From positions 1-51,583 of the IMG/VR virus record IMGVR_UViG_3300035180_001940: a DNA stretch of 51,583 nt. One strand, written 5' to 3'. Made by a program: the position numbers and the translations under genes. Shown here one piece after another: positions 2,743 to 32,145 of this stretch. This DNA is from a virus. Within the stretch, counting starts at the first letter, position 1. The number at the start of each line of letters is the position of its first letter. The notes under the pieces were generated by a model. The model saw only the letters and a program-made list of their open reading frames with translations. It was not told the origin of the DNA and did no database searches.

Positions 2743-3552
2743 ATGAAAATTGATAAAGACCCATTCGGAACAAGAATTAAACAATATGAAACTGAATGTG
2801 AAACATATCTCGATGATCAAAAATGGGCTATCGTTAGAATTGATGGTCACGGTTTTAGTAAATGGACTAAAGGTTTTGATAAACCGTTTGATGCATTACT
2901 CACTAAACTGATGTCAGAAACATCCCGTTTACTTATGGATGAATTTCATGCAGTAGCAAGTTATTCACAATCAGATGAGATTACACTTATTTTTGAACCT
3001 GCAAAATTAGTTGATGTAAAAGGTAAAAATAGATTCATCTATGCAGGTCGTGTACAAAAACTTACATCACTAATGGCATCATTTTCTGCAATGACATTTA
3101 ATCGATTATTACAAGATATTATAGATGCAACTCCTGATATTATGTCTATAGATCTATATAAATCAAAAGTTGGTTATGCATATTTTGATGCTCGTGTATT
3201 TCAAGTACCAACAGAATGTGAAGCATATAATTCATTTTTGTGGAGAACAAATGATTGTGAACGTAATTCTAAAAACGTATTCGCACAAAATATTCTTTCA
3301 CATAAACAATGTCAAAACAAAACAAGTAATGAGCTTGTTGAAATCTGTAAAGAATTAGGATTCGATTGGAATCTTCTTCCTGATAGGTATAAATTTGGTG
3401 TGCTTTGGAAAAAAGGAACTATGGAAGTTGATGCAATTGATTTTCATACAAAAGAACCAATTAAAGTAAAACGCTCTTATTTTATCGAAAATTCTAAACA
3501 ATGGAATTTTAACGACAGTGATGTTTCTTACGTTCTTAGAAGAAAAATATAA
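2743..3552 (+). CDS. thg1: Thg1-like 3'-5' RNA polymerase (tRNA-His guanylyltransferase family)
   Basis: A 269-residue protein close to the usual Thg1 length. The N-terminal catalytic core has RIDGHGFSKWTKGFDKPFD (metal-binding Asp34 and the GHxFSxFT-type motif), then SYSQSDEITLIF with acidic residues Asp78 and Glu79. Further on, FLWRTNDCERNSKNVFA matches the conserved WRxxDxxxN segment of the family. Thg1 adds nucleotides in the 3'-to-5' direction; bacterial and viral Thg1-like proteins mainly repair 5'-truncated tRNAs. No tRNA gene was seen in the window. A role in repairing host or phage tRNAs cut during infection is inference. Start ATG follows AAGGAAGGAAA. Confidence 0.88.
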   Translation: MKIDKDPFGTRIKQYETECETYLDDQKWAIVRIDGHGFSKWTKGFDKPFDALLTKLMSETSRLLMDEFHAVASYSQSDEITLIFEPAKLVDVKGKNRFIYAGRVQKLTSLMASFSAMTFNRLLQDIIDATPDIMSIDLYKSKVGYAYFDARVFQVPTECEAYNSFLWRTNDCERNSKNVFAQNILSHKQCQNKTSNELVEICKELGFDWNLLPDRYKFGVLWKKGTMEVDAIDFHTKEPIKVKRSYFIENSKQWNFNDSDVSYVLRRKI

Positions 3553-3644: not shown

Positions 3645-4007
3645 ATGTTTATTGCAGAGGTACCTGAAATTTTAAAGATTTGTCTAGAGGCAAACGAAAC
3701 ATTGCTTATGGAAGGCTCACATGGTATTGGTAAATCACAAATAGCACGTGAATTTTCAGAAAAAGAAAATGTACATAATGAAACATTATTTCTATCACAT
3801 CAGGAAGTAGGTGACCTTATTGGTATGCCTAGAACTGTTGAGATTCATGGAGAATTTGTTACTACTTGGACAAAACCTATATGGTTACATAGAATGGAAC
3901 GTGCTGTTATGCGAGATACAATGAATTTTAATGATCTTGCATTTAAAGATGACGAGTTCAAAGAATACGTTGAATTATATTTAAGAGAAAAGAATGCAAA
4001 AAATTAA
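3645..4007 (+). CDS. MoxR-type AAA+ ATPase, N-terminal half (Walker A only)
   Basis: A 120-residue protein containing only the first part of a MoxR AAA+ module. Walker A is at residues 24-31 (GSHGIGKS), followed by the strand-helix region LSHQEVGDLIGMPRTVE and TTWTKPIWLHRM, which in full-length MoxR proteins leads into Walker B. It then ends in about 35 residues of acidic helix. Walker B, sensor and arginine-finger residues are absent and lie in the gene at 6273. Strong ribosome-binding site GGGAGGA before ATG 3645. It could be half of a two-chain ATPase or a remnant. The VWA protein at 1220 is the expected partner. Confidence 0.75.
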   Translation: MFIAEVPEILKICLEANETLLMEGSHGIGKSQIAREFSEKENVHNETLFLSHQEVGDLIGMPRTVEIHGEFVTTWTKPIWLHRMERAVMRDTMNFNDLAFKDDEFKEYVELYLREKNAKN

Positions 4008-4027: not shown

Positions 4028-4036
4028 TGTTATAAT
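4028..4036 (+). promoter_or_regulatory. early-type promoter -10 (TGTTATAAT)
   Basis: TG-extended TATAAT directly after the split-ATPase N-half, 26 bases before the ATG at 4063. It gives the inserted genes their own transcription. Confidence 0.55.
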
Positions 4037-4335: not shown

Positions 4336-4862
4336 CTGTGATAAATCTTTATGGTGGTCCCGGAACGGGTAAAAGTACCACAGCAGCTGGATTGTTTCAT
4401 CTAATGAAAACAAAAGGTTATAAGGTTGAACTGATAACAGAATATGCAAAAGATTTAGTATATTCAGAATCATTCTTCAAGATGAAAGACCAATTGTACA
4501 TATTTACGAAACAACATCACAAGATATGGAAACTCAGGGATAAATTGGATTATGTAATAACAGATTCACCACTACCATTGAGTTTACATTATTTTGTTCC
4601 AGATGGACCTTATGACGAGAAATTATTTAAAGATTTAGTTATAAGCACTTTTAATGCATACAAGAATATAAATATTTTTGTCATTCGTGATTTGGAAACC
4701 CATTCATACCAAGAATACGGTAGAATCCAAACCGAGGCAGAGGCGGTTCTAATTGATTTGTCAATAAGAGATTTGTTAAACGAATACTCAATTGAATATA
4801 CCGATTTACTGGTATCAGATATGTTGCCTAGCGACATATTGGAACTTATCAAAAGAACTTAA
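4332..4862 (+). CDS. P-loop nucleotide kinase-like ATPase (AAA_28/NadR-like)
   Basis: A 176-residue protein beginning MTVINLYGGPGTGKSTTAAG, a textbook Walker A (GGPGTGKST, residues 8-16). It continues with LITEYAKDLVY, DQLYIFTKQHHKIW and a Walker B-like strand DYVITDSPLPLSL. This is a common phage family of small P-loop kinase-like ATPases resembling the NadR ribosylnicotinamide-kinase domain. The substrate is not known; with an NAD kinase 4 kb away, a nicotinamide nucleotide role is possible but unproven. Its start overlaps the DUF3310 stop (ATGA). Confidence 0.75.
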   Translation: MTVINLYGGPGTGKSTTAAGLFHLMKTKGYKVELITEYAKDLVYSESFFKMKDQLYIFTKQHHKIWKLRDKLDYVITDSPLPLSLHYFVPDGPYDEKLFKDLVISTFNAYKNINIFVIRDLETHSYQEYGRIQTEAEAVLIDLSIRDLLNEYSIEYTDLLVSDMLPSDILELIKRT

Positions 4863-4927
4863 TTTTAATCGTATAACGAAAATTTTGTGTTTATGAAAAA
4901 ATAACATAAGATTAACTCGATTGAAGC

Positions 4928-4942
4928 ACTTTCAAAGAAAGT
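4928..4942 (+). other. small hairpin in the leader of the SLT-like gene
   Basis: Perfect 6-bp stem ACTTTC/GAAAGT with an AAA loop in the 134-base gap between 4862 and 4997. No U-run follows, so it is more likely a leader structure than a terminator. The rest of this gap holds no convincing gene. Confidence 0.35.
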
Positions 4943-4996
4943 AGATAAATGAAGAAATTTATTTCTCATGAACGAAATTAGAAAAAGGAGCCCAAA

Positions 4997-5704
4997 TTGG
5001 ATAATCCATTTGTGAAGCTATCAAAAACAATCAAGAATTTGAAATTGTTGGTGATATTACTTGTGTCGATCTTGATTGGATCTGTGTTTGGTACAAAAAT
5101 GTACTTCGACAACAAGAATAATGATATCATCAATCAGAGTAAAGAATTTCAAAATAGTGCATTAGAAAATGCACAAAAATTAGAGCAAGCTGAAAAAGAA
5201 CTAAAAGAGAAAAACGTAAAGTTAAAGAATGTCTCGGTTATTGAGGATAAAATTACAGATTATATCCATCATCAAAATAACAAAGTATCGAACTCAGAGG
5301 CTCAACATTTAGCAGAAGCAATTATAAAAACATCAAATAAGTATGATACAGTTAAATGGAATATACTTACAAGTTTGGTTGATTCTGAATGTGCGTTTGA
5401 TACAAAGGTCGTACATAAAGCGGCATCATCAAGACATATTGATGTAGTTGGTGTTACAGGTGTCAGTACAACTACATGGTTAAATGAATTAAAACGTGAG
5501 AAGATAGTGACTTGTAGAAATGATCTATTAATTCCATCGAAGAATATTGAAGCATGTGGATATATTCTTAACAAGTATGGGGCAGGACATTCTACATTTA
5601 AAGCGCTTGCAATGTATAAAAGCGACTGCGAATTAGGCAGACGGCAAGCATCATTAGTCTTAAAAAAGGCTTACGACATAAAGACAAAGGATTATAATGT
5701 TTAA
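4997..5704 (+). CDS. membrane-anchored lytic-transglycosylase-like protein
   Basis: A 235-residue protein using a TTG start with an excellent ribosome-binding site (AAAAAGGAG). It has a membrane helix at about residues 15-33, a coiled coil at about 40-78, then an SLT-like globular domain. In the domain, NILTSLVDSECAFD places a candidate catalytic Glu131, GVTGVSTTTW occupies the usual GxxQ region, and NIEACGYILNKYGAG with ALAMYKSD fits the later transglycosylase motifs. It would face the periplasm and cut or bind peptidoglycan. The last codons overlap the bactofilin gene by eight bases, linking the two. The lysozyme-fold assignment is by motif only. Confidence 0.6.
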   Translation: MDNPFVKLSKTIKNLKLLVILLVSILIGSVFGTKMYFDNKNNDIINQSKEFQNSALENAQKLEQAEKELKEKNVKLKNVSVIEDKITDYIHHQNNKVSNSEAQHLAEAIIKTSNKYDTVKWNILTSLVDSECAFDTKVVHKAASSRHIDVVGVTGVSTTTWLNELKREKIVTCRNDLLIPSKNIEACGYILNKYGAGHSTFKALAMYKSDCELGRRQASLVLKKAYDIKTKDYNV

Positions 5705-6164
5705 TTACATATTAGTAATGATCAACTCAATTACTGGACTTTTCGGGAAAAAAGAAACTCCAAAAGCAACTGTTATATCAAAAGGTACAACTATTACTGG
5801 TAAATTGGAAACAACAGATTTATTATTTGTTTCCGGTAATATCTTCTCAGATAAAATTACTTGTACACAAATTGTAATTGAAAATACAGGTGATATCCGT
5901 AGTGATATATTTGCAGATATATTACATGTGTATGGTACAATCACTGGAAACATCCAAGCAAATGAGGTTTATATTTACGAAGGTGCTACGGTTCACGGCG
6001 ATATTACATATACAGAAAAGATTTCTATATCAACATTGAATGGTTCTGATACCATTATTAATGGAAATATAAAATATATGAATATTATTCCAGAAAATAA
6101 TTCTGCTAAAGTACGTGTTGCTTTAGCTCCTAAAGAACGTTCTACTACAGTACCTGCTGTATAA
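5697..6164 (+). CDS. bactofilin (phage-encoded cytoskeletal protein)
   Basis: A 155-residue protein with the bactofilin signature. The core of about residues 23-130 is built of repeated short strands with the pattern I.G.I...D.....G.I.G.I (TTITGKLETTD, GNIFSDKI, GDIRSDIFAD, GTITGNIQANEV, ATVHGDITYT, INGNIKYM), which fold into a right-handed beta-helix. A hydrophobic N-terminal stretch (MFNYILVMINSITGLF) resembles the membrane-targeting peptide of bactofilins. Bactofilins form membrane-bound filaments that position murein enzymes, as CcmA does in Helicobacter shape control. Here it overlaps a membrane murein-lytic gene, the same functional pairing. Ribosome-binding site ACAAAGGA precedes ATG 5697. 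Confidence 0.8.
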   Translation: MFNYILVMINSITGLFGKKETPKATVISKGTTITGKLETTDLLFVSGNIFSDKITCTQIVIENTGDIRSDIFADILHVYGTITGNIQANEVYIYEGATVHGDITYTEKISISTLNGSDTIINGNIKYMNIIPENNSAKVRVALAPKERSTTVPAV

Positions 6165-6272: not shown

Positions 6273-7220
6273 ATGGATAAGTTAAGTATAACACGTGATG
6301 AGTTACAAAAATTATACAATGAATTTTACGATAATGAGTATAGCTTGTTGAGTAAACAAAACACTCAAGTATATTGGACAAAAGGTAAAAATACTTCACT
6401 TCTACTTGATGAATTAAATCGTGCACCACTTGATGTAAAACAATCAGCACTACAACTTGTTCTTGAGAAAGAAATTCATCAACATTCGTTACCATTTTTT
6501 CGTGGTAAACCATCATTAATTATGGCTTGTGTGAACCCAGCAGATGGTAATTATCAAGTAGATGCATTAGATCCAGCATTACTTGACCGTTTCTTAACGA
6601 TTGAAGTACAAGCAGATGCGGAATCGTGGTTACGATGGGCTACTAAAAAAGGTTTACATAAGGCTGTATTATCATTCATTTCAAATAATCCTGATAAACT
6701 AAATTTTATGAGTGATGAAGTACAAGATTCTAAATTCCCAACACCACGTGCATGGGAGAAACTTTCTGATTTATTGAAGGTGTTAAAAGGAGGTAAAGAA
6801 AATCCTTTTGCATTGACAATTATTCGTGGAAAAATTGGAGAAAGTATAGGGTCACGATTTTATGAATTTTATACACGTTTCAATGAACAAATTACTTATG
6901 ATGATTTAAAAAAATTTATATACAATCAACAAGGTAATGATATTAAGGACATTACACGTAACCTTAAACTATTCCTTGCAAATCAGAATAGTATGTTTAA
7001 AACTGAAATGTTAAATCTCTTCTGTGAACGTGAACTAATAAAAGGAATTTCTGAGAAAGAAGCATTAGGTACGATTGCTATGTTACACGCAGTTGAATTA
7101 GAAATACGTGCATCAATTCTAAAAAGTATGAAAGTAAACAATGGGGATAGATTTAAAATATTTTTATCTATTGATAAAGATAGAGAATTAATCTGTTCAA
7201 TCACCGATCATATAGTGTGA
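6273..7220 (+). CDS. MoxR-type AAA+ ATPase, C-terminal half (Walker B, sensors)
   Basis: A 315-residue protein supplying what the gene at 3645 lacks. About 35 residues of acidic helix lead into VYWTKGKNTSLLLDELNRAP, with Walker B at residues 43-47 (LLLDE). Then come APLDVKQSALQLVLEKEIHQH, sensor 1 ACVNPAD (Asn88), and ALDPALLDRF with a candidate arginine finger Arg106. The helical lid follows (FPTPRAWEKLSDLL). There is no Walker A. Together with 3645-4007 it makes one complete MoxR module, cut in the stretch between Walker A and Walker B. It starts at ATG 6273 after GAAGGA and has its own promoter. Confidence 0.78.
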   Translation: MDKLSITRDELQKLYNEFYDNEYSLLSKQNTQVYWTKGKNTSLLLDELNRAPLDVKQSALQLVLEKEIHQHSLPFFRGKPSLIMACVNPADGNYQVDALDPALLDRFLTIEVQADAESWLRWATKKGLHKAVLSFISNNPDKLNFMSDEVQDSKFPTPRAWEKLSDLLKVLKGGKENPFALTIIRGKIGESIGSRFYEFYTRFNEQITYDDLKKFIYNQQGNDIKDITRNLKLFLANQNSMFKTEMLNLFCERELIKGISEKEALGTIAMLHAVELEIRASILKSMKVNNGDRFKIFLSIDKDRELICSITDHIV

Positions 7221-7223
7221 TGA

Positions 7224-7231
7224 TATAAATA
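7224..7231 (+). promoter_or_regulatory. late-type promoter (TATAAATA)
   Basis: Exact T4 late consensus TATAAATA, 28 bases ahead of the PhoH start. T4 late boxes of this form need the gp55 sigma factor; none is visible in the window. Confidence 0.5.
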
Positions 7232-29067: not shown

Positions 29068-32000
29068 ATGACAGATATAATATTAACGGAAAAGAATGAA
29101 CTCAAAGAAGTAATACAAAAAATTCTTGATAAACATGAAGGTAAAAATTCCTCACGTGTTGATGAAAAAGAAGATAAAGAACATGTTTCTATATGGTCTA
29201 AAATTACTGGTAAGAAAGACAAAAAACCTTCAAATAACATTGTTGCTGAGGCATTAAAAGAACCAATTAAAAATGACAAAACAATTATTAAGGAAATAAA
29301 AGAAAATAATATTCTCCTTAAGAAAATTGATATAAAACTTAAAAAACTATTAAATGGAAAAATAAAAGGTCATGACCCACGTCTTGATTTTGGTAAAGAT
29401 GGTACTGGTGGAAAATCAGCAGGCTCATTAATCAAAGCAGTTTCAAGTGTTGGAAAAGCAGATCAAACTATTAAAGATAATTCTGATGATGATGATTTTG
29501 GGTTATCAGATATGCTTGAAGCTGGTTCTGCTCTTAAAGGTGCAAAATCATTATTTAAAAAAGCTCCTAAAGTTAATCCAAGTACAATAGCTGAATCCGC
29601 ATCAACAGAATCAATTGTATCTAAAGCAGCAGCACCAGTTGCTGAAGATGCTGGAATGATGTCAAAAGGATTAGGCACTGCGGGTAAACTTGCAGGTAGA
29701 GTTGCTGTACCATTAACAGGATTAGTTGCAGGATACGACAAATATTCACAAGTAAAAGATGATAAAACTTTAAATGGTAGTCAGAAAACAGCTCAAGTTG
29801 TTGCAACAGGTGGTGGTGCAATGGCTGGCGCAGCAACTGGCGCAATGGCTGGCGCAGCACTTGGTAGTGTTGTTCCTATTGTAGGAACAGCTATTGGTGG
29901 TGTTCTAGGTGGTATAGCAGGTGCATACCTTGGTCAAAAAGGTGGTGAGGCAGTAGGTAATGTTGCTAGTGATGCATTAGCAGATGATCCTAAAAAAACA
30001 CTTGAGAAAACACCTGAAGGTGCTGCACTCCTAGGAATGCAAACATCACTTAATCGTATTGAGTCACAAGTAAATAAATTAGTTGGAAAAAAATCTATTA
30101 ATTTTGATGCAGGTAAAGATAATAAAAAATTAAATGATCTTACAAAAAAAACAACACCAGTTGATGTTACAACTAAAAAAGATGACGATGGAAAAGGATT
30201 CTTTGGTTCTATATCAAGTGGAATTCAATCATTTGCTCATAGTGCTGTAAACGTAGGAAAAGATGCTTGGGATGCAGCTAAAAAACTTGGTGGTCAAGGT
30301 ATTGATAAACTTTCAGGATATTTTGAATCTGGTGATAAAGGTCCTGGTACAATATCATCCGGCCGTGGTGATAATGGTGGTGCATCATATGGTACACATC
30401 AATTCTCATCAAAAAATGGTTCATTACAAGGTTATCTACAGAATTCAAAATATGGTAAAGAATTTAATGGATTAGCACCTGGTTCTGCAGAATTTAATTC
30501 AAAATGGAAAGATATAGCTGATAAAGATCCTAAAGGATTTGATGCAGATCAGGCACAATATACAACAGCAAAATATTATGTACCACAACAGAAAAAACTT
30601 TCAGATTCAGGATTCGATCTTTCTAAACGTTCAAAAGCATTACAATCTGCAGTATATTCAGCAAGTGTTCAATTTGGCGGAAATACAGATATAGTTTTAA
30701 ATGCTCTTAAATCTCAGAATATAGATCCTAAAACTGCAAAAGATGAAGATATTATTAATGCAATATATCAATATAAAATGGATAATAATTCTACATTATT
30801 CAAAAACTCAAGTCCTGCAGTTCAACAAGGAACATACAATCGTGCAGCTACTGAAAAACAAACTGTATTAAATTCTCTCCAGGATGAGAGGGCAAATCCA
30901 AATAAAAATGCTCAAACTCCTGCACAAGCATCAAAACCTGCAACTGTAGGATCTAATAGACCTAAAATGACGATGGGAACAAGATCATCTACACCTGTAC
31001 CAAAAAGAGGTTCTGGTGGTGGTCAAGGTTCAAGTATGTTTAGTAGTATTGGTTCAAGTATAAGTTCATTTTTCAAACCAATGGCTTCAGGGTTTAGTGC
31101 AGGTGTTGATAGAACAACTACCGCACTTGGTGCCGGATATGATGCAGTAAAAAGTTTCGTTGGTAATGCATTAAAACCTGCAGATAATAGTGTAGATATT
31201 AGTGGTGTTCAGCCTGCAGTTCTTGGTAATTTAAATGCTATGGCTGCTGATTATGCAAAAAGAACTGGTCAACCGCTACAAATAAATTCAGGTTATCGAG
31301 CATCAGGCAAACAAGCAAAACTTTATCAAGCAGATTTAGCTGCAAATGGAGGACAACCATCTGGTAAAGTTGCACCTCCTGGTTCATCATTACATAATTA
31401 TGGAATGGCAGTTGACGTTAATTCTACAGCAGGTAATTATCTTCAACAATCAGGAATGCTTGATGCATATGGTTTTACAAGACCAATGCCTGGCGAACCA
31501 TGGCATTTAGAACCAAAAGGTATTATTAGAACAAACGTTAAAAATAATCCTGCAGGTGAAGCAGCTAAAGTTCAACAAATCTCTAAACCTGCAACACCTA
31601 TTAAAAATGTAAAACCACCTCAATCAGGTGGAAATGATGTCTCCAAACGTAAAACAGAAAGTGATGCTCCTCCTGATAAGTCTTTTCAAGCATTAGTTGC
31701 AAAGAAAAAACCTCAGGCATCAACATCAACAGCAAGTGCATCAAGTGGTTCGCATGGGTCACCAGCTGCACCTACGCCAGTTGTTGTTAAACCATCAGGT
31801 CTTGCAGGTGGTGATATTGTTAAACCAACAGGTACACCTGGTGTAACACCAGTTGTTGTTGATAATACACCAACAGATGCATCTACAGATACATCTTCAA
31901 CAAATAATAGTTCAGTTGCTAATGTATGTACAGCTGGTAATATTTCAACCGCACCTACACCAGATATAAAAGTATCATCACAAAATGATAAAATGGATAC

Positions 32001-32145
32001 AACAGCATCTAAATCTCAGGCACCAGTTGTGATAAATAATAGTAACAATACAACTGGTAAAGACAGCAATAAAGGATCACCGGAATTTGGTATGAGTCAA
32101 GTTGCAGGACCAAATCCTTATACAGTTGCTTTAATGACATTTTAA
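29068..32145 (+). CDS. tape-measure-like tail protein with muramidase and M15 peptidase domains
   Basis: A 1025-residue protein. Residues 1-110 are charged and coiled-coil-like; about 245-298 form a Gly/Ala-rich hydrophobic zipper (GGAMAGAATGAMAGA...). Residues about 405-605 match the VgrG3-type muramidase C-terminal domain: FESGDKGPGTISSGRGDNG with candidate catalytic Glu420, GASYGTHQFSSK, then WKDIADKDPKGFDADQAQY. Residues about 713-815 are an M15/VanY-type peptidase with zinc ligands His776 and Asp783 (HNYGMAVD) and His813 (EPWHLEP). The tail end is low-complexity. Position after the tube and gp26-family genes fits a tape measure that carries cell-wall-cutting domains to the hub. Confidence 0.75.
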   Translation: MTDIILTEKNELKEVIQKILDKHEGKNSSRVDEKEDKEHVSIWSKITGKKDKKPSNNIVAEALKEPIKNDKTIIKEIKENNILLKKIDIKLKKLLNGKIKGHDPRLDFGKDGTGGKSAGSLIKAVSSVGKADQTIKDNSDDDDFGLSDMLEAGSALKGAKSLFKKAPKVNPSTIAESASTESIVSKAAAPVAEDAGMMSKGLGTAGKLAGRVAVPLTGLVAGYDKYSQVKDDKTLNGSQKTAQVVATGGGAMAGAATGAMAGAALGSVVPIVGTAIGGVLGGIAGAYLGQKGGEAVGNVASDALADDPKKTLEKTPEGAALLGMQTSLNRIESQVNKLVGKKSINFDAGKDNKKLNDLTKKTTPVDVTTKKDDDGKGFFGSISSGIQSFAHSAVNVGKDAWDAAKKLGGQGIDKLSGYFESGDKGPGTISSGRGDNGGASYGTHQFSSKNGSLQGYLQNSKYGKEFNGLAPGSAEFNSKWKDIADKDPKGFDADQAQYTTAKYYVPQQKKLSDSGFDLSKRSKALQSAVYSASVQFGGNTDIVLNALKSQNIDPKTAKDEDIINAIYQYKMDNNSTLFKNSSPAVQQGTYNRAATEKQTVLNSLQDERANPNKNAQTPAQASKPATVGSNRPKMTMGTRSSTPVPKRGSGGGQGSSMFSSIGSSISSFFKPMASGFSAGVDRTTTALGAGYDAVKSFVGNALKPADNSVDISGVQPAVLGNLNAMAADYAKRTGQPLQINSGYRASGKQAKLYQADLAANGGQPSGKVAPPGSSLHNYGMAVDVNSTAGNYLQQSGMLDAYGFTRPMPGEPWHLEPKGIIRTNVKNNPAGEAAKVQQISKPATPIKNVKPPQSGGNDVSKRKTESDAPPDKSFQALVAKKKPQASTSTASASSGSHGSPAAPTPVVVKPSGLAGGDIVKPTGTPGVTPVVVDNTPTDASTDTSSTNNSSVANVCTAGNISTAPTPDIKVSSQNDKMDTTASKSQAPVVINNSNNTTGKDSNKGSPEFGMSQVAGPNPYTVALMTF

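Follow-up and report, generated by a model that had tools for sequence, protein, structure and literature searches.

The closest described counterpart of the locus reported here is the lmdC-bacA unit of Hyphomonas neptunium and Rhodospirillum rubrum, which has a 17-bp gene overlap in H. neptunium (PMC10945521). LmdC consists of a short cytoplasmic tail, a transmembrane (TM) helix, a coiled coil and a periplasmic M23 enzyme domain, and its N-terminal peptide binds BacA directly, at about 15 μM (PMC10945521). Bactofilins organise ParABS in Myxococcus (PMC5703909), the sequence MFSKKKK is a membrane-targeting consensus (PMC12448750), and in viruses bactofilins occur in Imitevirales giant viruses (PMC12192438). 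A literature search found no paper on a phage bactofilin, and none describing a gene pair of bactofilin and transglycosylase in cells or viruses. Phages make tubulin-like filaments.

The window, which is the whole stretch of DNA analysed, is an IMG/VR virus record of 51,583 bases. It contains T4-type baseplate genes (tube cap, hub/lysozyme and wedge subunits) together with genes for PIN-PhoH, an ATP-dependent DNA ligase, a Dda-like helicase, a Thg1-like protein and a MoxR/VWA pair, and the baseplate genes and the PhoH, ligase, helicase and MoxR gene content identify it as a fragment of a T4-like myovirus. Its nearest reference relatives are remote (about 31% in a baseplate protein, to Campylobacter and Vibrio phages), and its DNA ligase resembles those of Cellulophaga phages (44.5%). 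The gene pair described below is located in a neighbourhood of ligase, PhoH, kinase and MoxR genes. A misbinned bacterial contig was ruled out, since the contig also carries baseplate and tail genes and since its gene block recurs in two other IMG/VR lineages.

The first-pass annotation of this DNA had placed two overlapping ORFs in the window, and their coordinates (4997-5704 and 5697-6164) and eight-base overlap (5697-5704) were confirmed. The features of the locus are shown in Table 1.

Table 1 Features of the bactofilin locus, in window coordinates
Feature	Position	Strand	Remarks
Extended -10 promoter-like motif TGTTATAAT	4028..4036	+	35 bp upstream of ORF 4063
Leader of the pair	4863..4996	+	No other stretch of the region is as conserved; predicted to fold into a multi-hairpin RNA
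Predicted Shine-Dalgarno AAGGAG	4985..4990	+	6 nt before TTG; from sequence; kept in L002 and L006
TM-anchored, coiled-coil, SLT/GH23-like protein	4997..5704	+	TTG start, 235 aa
Predicted TM helix (aa 15-33)	5039..5095	+	Kyte-Doolittle 2.35; helix in model
Coiled-coil-like helix (aa 41-95)	5117..5281	+	62% hydrophobic a/d positions; modelled, at low confidence, as a single long helix
SLT-like domain (aa 110-207)	5324..5617	+	Pfam SLT 0.009-0.019 (below cut-off); top seven Foldseek matches MltE
Glu131	5387..5389	+	Falls on the catalytic Glu in an alignment with E. coli lytic transglycosylases; the same in all three phages
Predicted Shine-Dalgarno AAAGGA	5686..5691	+	5 nt before ATG, within the SLT ORF; from sequence
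Bactofilin	5697..6164	+	ATG start, 155 aa; initial 8 bases within the SLT gene
Bactofilin beta-helix core (aa 25-112)	5769..6032	+	PF04519 profile 1-88 of 98; pLDDT >80 over most

The pair and its overlap are kept in three diverged IMG/VR phage lineages, represented by the window and L001, by L002, L003, L007 and L008, and by L006, and the overlap is of the same eight bases in L002 and L006. Both starts are credible, with the AAGGA core before the bactofilin ATG also conserved in the two diverged relatives and with the overlapping ATG being, in L006, the sole start ahead of the conserved bactofilin core. Both ORFs are under purifying selection, and the overlap is therefore not a chance ORF pair. 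Among lineages the SLT-like partner is 85-89% identical (dN/dS 0.12) and the bactofilin 53-62% identical (dN/dS 0.26-0.44); given this several-fold higher rate of evolution in the bactofilin, tight co-adaptation of the two is not obvious. The dN/dS of the bactofilin is also high for the region, neighbouring genes giving values of 0.05-0.22 with the L002 PhoH comparisons excepted.

The downstream ORF is a true bactofilin. It matched PF04519 at 7.8e-16 (58.6 bits, the cut-off being 27.9), the copies from all three phage lineages exceeded that cut-off, and the closest solved structure was Caulobacter BacA (2n3d, 2.3e-5). An AlphaFold2 model, built from an alignment of three sequences only, had a confident core, with which Foldseek ranked three bactofilin structures first to third in the PDB (prob 1.00), including the Thermus bactofilin 6ria at a target-normalised TM-score of 0.92 and 1.1 Å over 91 columns, while the matches below these three fitted poorly (most with prob <0.4). 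The Foldseek E-values were modest (0.02-0.05) and are therefore read jointly with the Pfam result. Because structure prediction and Foldseek ranked bactofilins first, ahead of every spike or fibre, the earlier identification as a bactofilin was upheld against assignment to another beta-helix family. A spike or fibre beta-helix was ruled out, with Foldseek and Pfam both leading to bactofilins and the best PHROG match being weak (0.003, 'virion structural protein').

The phage protein has the same beta-helix core as Caulobacter BacA (2n3d) and the Thermus bactofilin (6ria, 6rib), as judged by sequence and predicted structure, at about 13-26% identity, and differs from them in an extra N-terminal hydrophobic stretch in two of the three phages and in a C-terminal tail of varying length. 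The tail is variable among the phages, L002 and L006 sharing an LK-LM-LEP motif that is absent from the window copy. At the N terminus F-x-K-K-E is invariant in the three phages, following a hydrophobic stretch, and its likeness to the MFSKKKK consensus (PMC12448750) agrees with the putative membrane-targeting stretch noted in the first-pass annotation. The bactofilins of this phage clade are monophyletic in a tree with too little resolution to place them at depth. A recent copy from a known host was rejected, as no bacterial relative above about 32-36% was seen and the tree assigned the clade no position.

The upstream ORF encodes a protein with a short, lysine-rich tail of about 14 residues on the predicted cytoplasmic side; the lysine-rich N side of the TM helix leads to an expected N-in/C-out orientation. 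Pfam SLT matches were obtained for two of the three members at E 0.009-0.019, and a single-genome search gave 2.8e-5; the PF01464 scores of 14.9 and 16.9 bits were below the curated cut-off of 21.3. The structure model was poor (pLDDT 53), and the top seven Foldseek matches obtained with it, all to MltE, had prob values of 0.13-0.33. When the partner profile was compared with a joint alignment of five E. coli transglycosylases (Slt, MltC, MltD, EmtA and MltF), it scored 19.96 against 18.33 for the best of 100 column shuffles, with a reported probability of only 2.7%. The partner has in common with E. coli MltE/EmtA, Slt, MltC, MltD and MltF the aligned Glu in an E-[CS]-x-[FW]-like context, as well as N-I-x-x-[GC] and A-x-x-Y stretches, but it is unlike them in falling below the family cut-offs, in having a few extra residues after the Glu motif, and in having Lys in place of the Asn of AYN that follows the conserved Tyr. 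No M23 domain was matched in the phage partner by Pfam, and no homologue of the partner was found in INPHARED at E up to 10. The sole plasmid match at E <10 had an E-value of 2 and is annotated as a lytic transglycosylase. From these several weak, mutually consistent results an SLT-like fold of the C-terminal domain is considered likely, and the protein is a candidate wall-cutting enzyme. Of the earlier description of a TM-anchored, coiled-coil, SLT-like protein, the TM helix and a heptad-like region are borne out, and the SLT assignment is retained as probable on mutually consistent evidence that lies below cut-off.

Bacterial counterparts were sought in a sample of 398 Pseudomonadota genomes, and the profile of the phage bactofilins found matches in 140 of them. 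At 20 of the 30 best bacterial bactofilin matches, the gene immediately upstream, on the strand of the bactofilin and overlapping its ORF, encodes an M23 peptidase (recognized by motif), and Pfam found M23 in all six upstream neighbours tested. The parallel with cellular bactofilins and their murein enzymes, drawn in the first-pass annotation, is strengthened by the gene order at these bacterial loci. The phage pair shares with lmdC-bacA a two-gene unit of a membrane-bound hydrolase-type protein and a bactofilin, overlapping as in H. neptunium, and the hydrolase-upstream gene order is that of the 20 bacterial loci. The architecture of the partner (tail, TM helix, coiled coil, enzyme domain) is likewise that of LmdC. 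It differs in that its enzyme domain is SLT/GH23-like and not M23, in its length of 235 aa compared with about 360-460 aa for LmdC-type hydrolases, and in its location in a T4-like phage. The LmdC-type motif FPER..RS.G..RF of the BacA-binding region, present in most bacterial neighbours, was not found in the phage tail MDNPFVKLSKTIKNLK. With the same order, overlap and architecture and an SLT-like enzyme, the phage pair is therefore lmdC-bacA-like in layout and probably in function, and its enzyme lies outside that hydrolase family.

That the pair represents the lmdC-bacA unit in phage form, in which a bactofilin-clustered SLT-like protein locally remodels the host wall during infection, is judged plausible and a little short of probable; polymerisation, binding, catalysis and the effect on the host wall are all steps that we infer. 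The reading builds on the bactofilin fold, the layout of the operon and its retention in three lineages, which are established, and on the TM helix, the SLT-like domain and the type of promoter upstream, which have support. Against it count the sub-threshold SLT match with its poor model and its Lys for Asn, the missing LmdC-type tail motif, the faster evolution of the bactofilin and a late-type TATAAATA within the kinase gene. The bactofilin would polymerise along the cytoplasmic membrane on its inner side, anchored by its hydrophobic, lysine-containing N terminus, and its polymers would concentrate the co-translated partner. The partner would have its tail in the cytoplasm, its TM helix across the membrane, and its coiled coil and SLT-like domain in the periplasm, where the clustered lytic domains could cleave or restructure glycan strands at a selected location, and the outcome would be an alteration of host wall growth or shape during infection, with no terminal lysis. 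That a phage-made bactofilin cytoskeleton aims a membrane-tethered lytic transglycosylase, and in this way exerts spatial control over host wall growth, is advanced more tentatively. If true, a phage would spatially reorganise host wall synthesis with a scaffold of its own, and the bactofilin-hydrolase principle would reach beyond M23 peptidases. The pair represents a small, translationally coupled two-gene system for studying how bactofilins recruit membrane enzymes.

Promoter motifs were found by de novo inspection and picked after the sequences had been viewed. In L002 and L006 the TGTTATAAT motif lies 37 and 35 bp, respectively, ahead of the orthologue of ORF 4063, and motifs of the TGnTATAAT type also precede DNA-metabolism genes, among them the DNA ligase and the Dda-helicase region. 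The copy at 4028 likely heads a unit of the ORF90, kinase, SLT and bactofilin genes. A second motif, ATAAATAAnnTA, is likely a T4-type late promoter; all seven of its occurrences fall 23-46 bp ahead of a gene on the same strand, where about 6% of positions would be expected, a count that is descriptive because the motifs were chosen after inspection. The occurrences are at window positions 7225, 12038, 14448, 22296, 27119, 27620 and 39675. No ATAAATAAnnTA was found directly upstream of the pair. The late-type TATAAATA is depleted in the window (4 against 17 expected), and one copy at 4667, within the kinase ORF and conserved in the three phages, could give late expression of the pair. Taken together, the promoter context suggests early or middle expression.

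Early or middle-type promoters argue mildly against terminal lysis, and thereby bear on the possibility that the pair is a lysis module, in which the SLT protein would be a membrane-tethered endolysin of the signal-anchor type that the bactofilin holds or positions until lysis, giving a localised burst. An N-terminal TM helix that contains Gly/Ser residues and leads into a lysozyme-like domain would suit such an enzyme, as would the conserved TATAAATA 330 bp upstream of the pair, but the long coiled coil of the partner is unlike small SAR endolysins, the pair lies outside the late tail-gene region, and the late motif that precedes genes at each of its seven occurrences does not precede the pair. 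This explanation is considered unlikely.

The statement in the first-pass annotation that bactofilins are rarely reported in phages was found to hold for reference phages, as INPHARED contained no record matching three different bactofilin queries and PHROG no family matching any phage bactofilin well, but it needs qualification for IMG/VR. A scan of IMG/VR with a degenerate DNA motif identified 26 records, 16 of them with a bactofilin above the Pfam cut-off; the scan finds canonical motifs only, and 16 is therefore a lower bound. With 16 further records, phage bactofilins are uncommon rather than unique. A genome scan with peptide patterns from the phage bactofilin profile gave no match. The IMG/VR bactofilins include those of siphophage or prophage-type contigs (L034, L036, L038, and also L026, L028, L029, L031, L032, L044 and L045). 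In the inspected contigs of this type the gene lies antisense within the head-tail cluster, followed in L038 by an SNase gene, and these bactofilins are likely morons expressed in lysogeny. The L034 gene has its bacterial relatives mainly among Rhodobacteraceae genomes. In L049, a 112-kb virus record, a bactofilin gene in the region 581-1712 overlaps a gene for a YfbR-like HD nucleotidase by 17 bases. The siphophage-type and L049 proteins have the bactofilin domain in common with that of the window and form a separate clade in the tree. On proteobacterial plasmids (regions L020 2324-3351, L022 2064-3471 and L021 2196-3336) bactofilins are located beside small hypothetical genes, one of which encodes a TM-like stretch; L021 has a second bactofilin, and no SLT was seen at the plasmid loci.

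Among the inspected neighbours of the other phage-record bactofilins no hydrolase partner was found, which would be consistent with a role of the window's bactofilin in intracellular organisation, that is, as a scaffold attached to the membrane on which the phage replicates or assembles, with the SLT protein separate in purpose. Bactofilins also organise non-wall cargo, as with ParABS in Myxococcus (PMC5703909), but retention of the overlapping pair in all three lineages, mirroring the hydrolase-bactofilin operon, makes this role improbable. Superinfection exclusion, in which a periplasmic, perhaps inactive SLT-like domain on a bactofilin membrane scaffold would hinder the wall-piercing lysin of incoming phages, accords with the non-canonical SLT motifs, the early or middle promoter and a fast bactofilin evolution consistent with an arms race, but is judged less probable still, the catalytic-type Glu being invariant in the three phages. 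Local remodelling of the host wall by a bactofilin-clustered SLT-like protein is accordingly the reading retained here. The first-pass observation stands, and its functional interpretation, which allowed for each of these roles, is borne out in part.

The pair is preceded by a leader of 134 nt that is 96-99% identical in the three lineages, whereas the genes on either side show differences at 34-46% of their synonymous sites. Synonymous divergence drops towards the leader from both sides, and the adjacent codons are depleted in it as well. The leader folds somewhat better than shuffled sequences (z -1.6 to -2.4). No Rfam match was obtained in the window, and a search of other viral contigs found the conserved leader only in the same lineages. 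The leader may be a regulatory RNA or a recombination tract, the latter of which would give a similar gradient.

Further genes of the window include a Thg1-like tRNA-His guanylyltransferase at 2743-3552 (2.4e-30) and a 1025-aa protein (29068-32145) with a VgrG3-like C-terminal domain, a VanY peptidase domain and matches to tail-lysin PHROGs, which suggest a probable virion-associated lysin that combines two enzyme domains. A MoxR-type ATPase is encoded in two pieces, at 3645-4007 (Walker A half) and 6273-7220 (Walker B half), both of which match a single PHROG (phrog_1297). They are separated by about 2.3 kb containing the ORF90, kinase, SLT and bactofilin genes. L002 and L006 share the identical split, and purifying selection acts on both halves.
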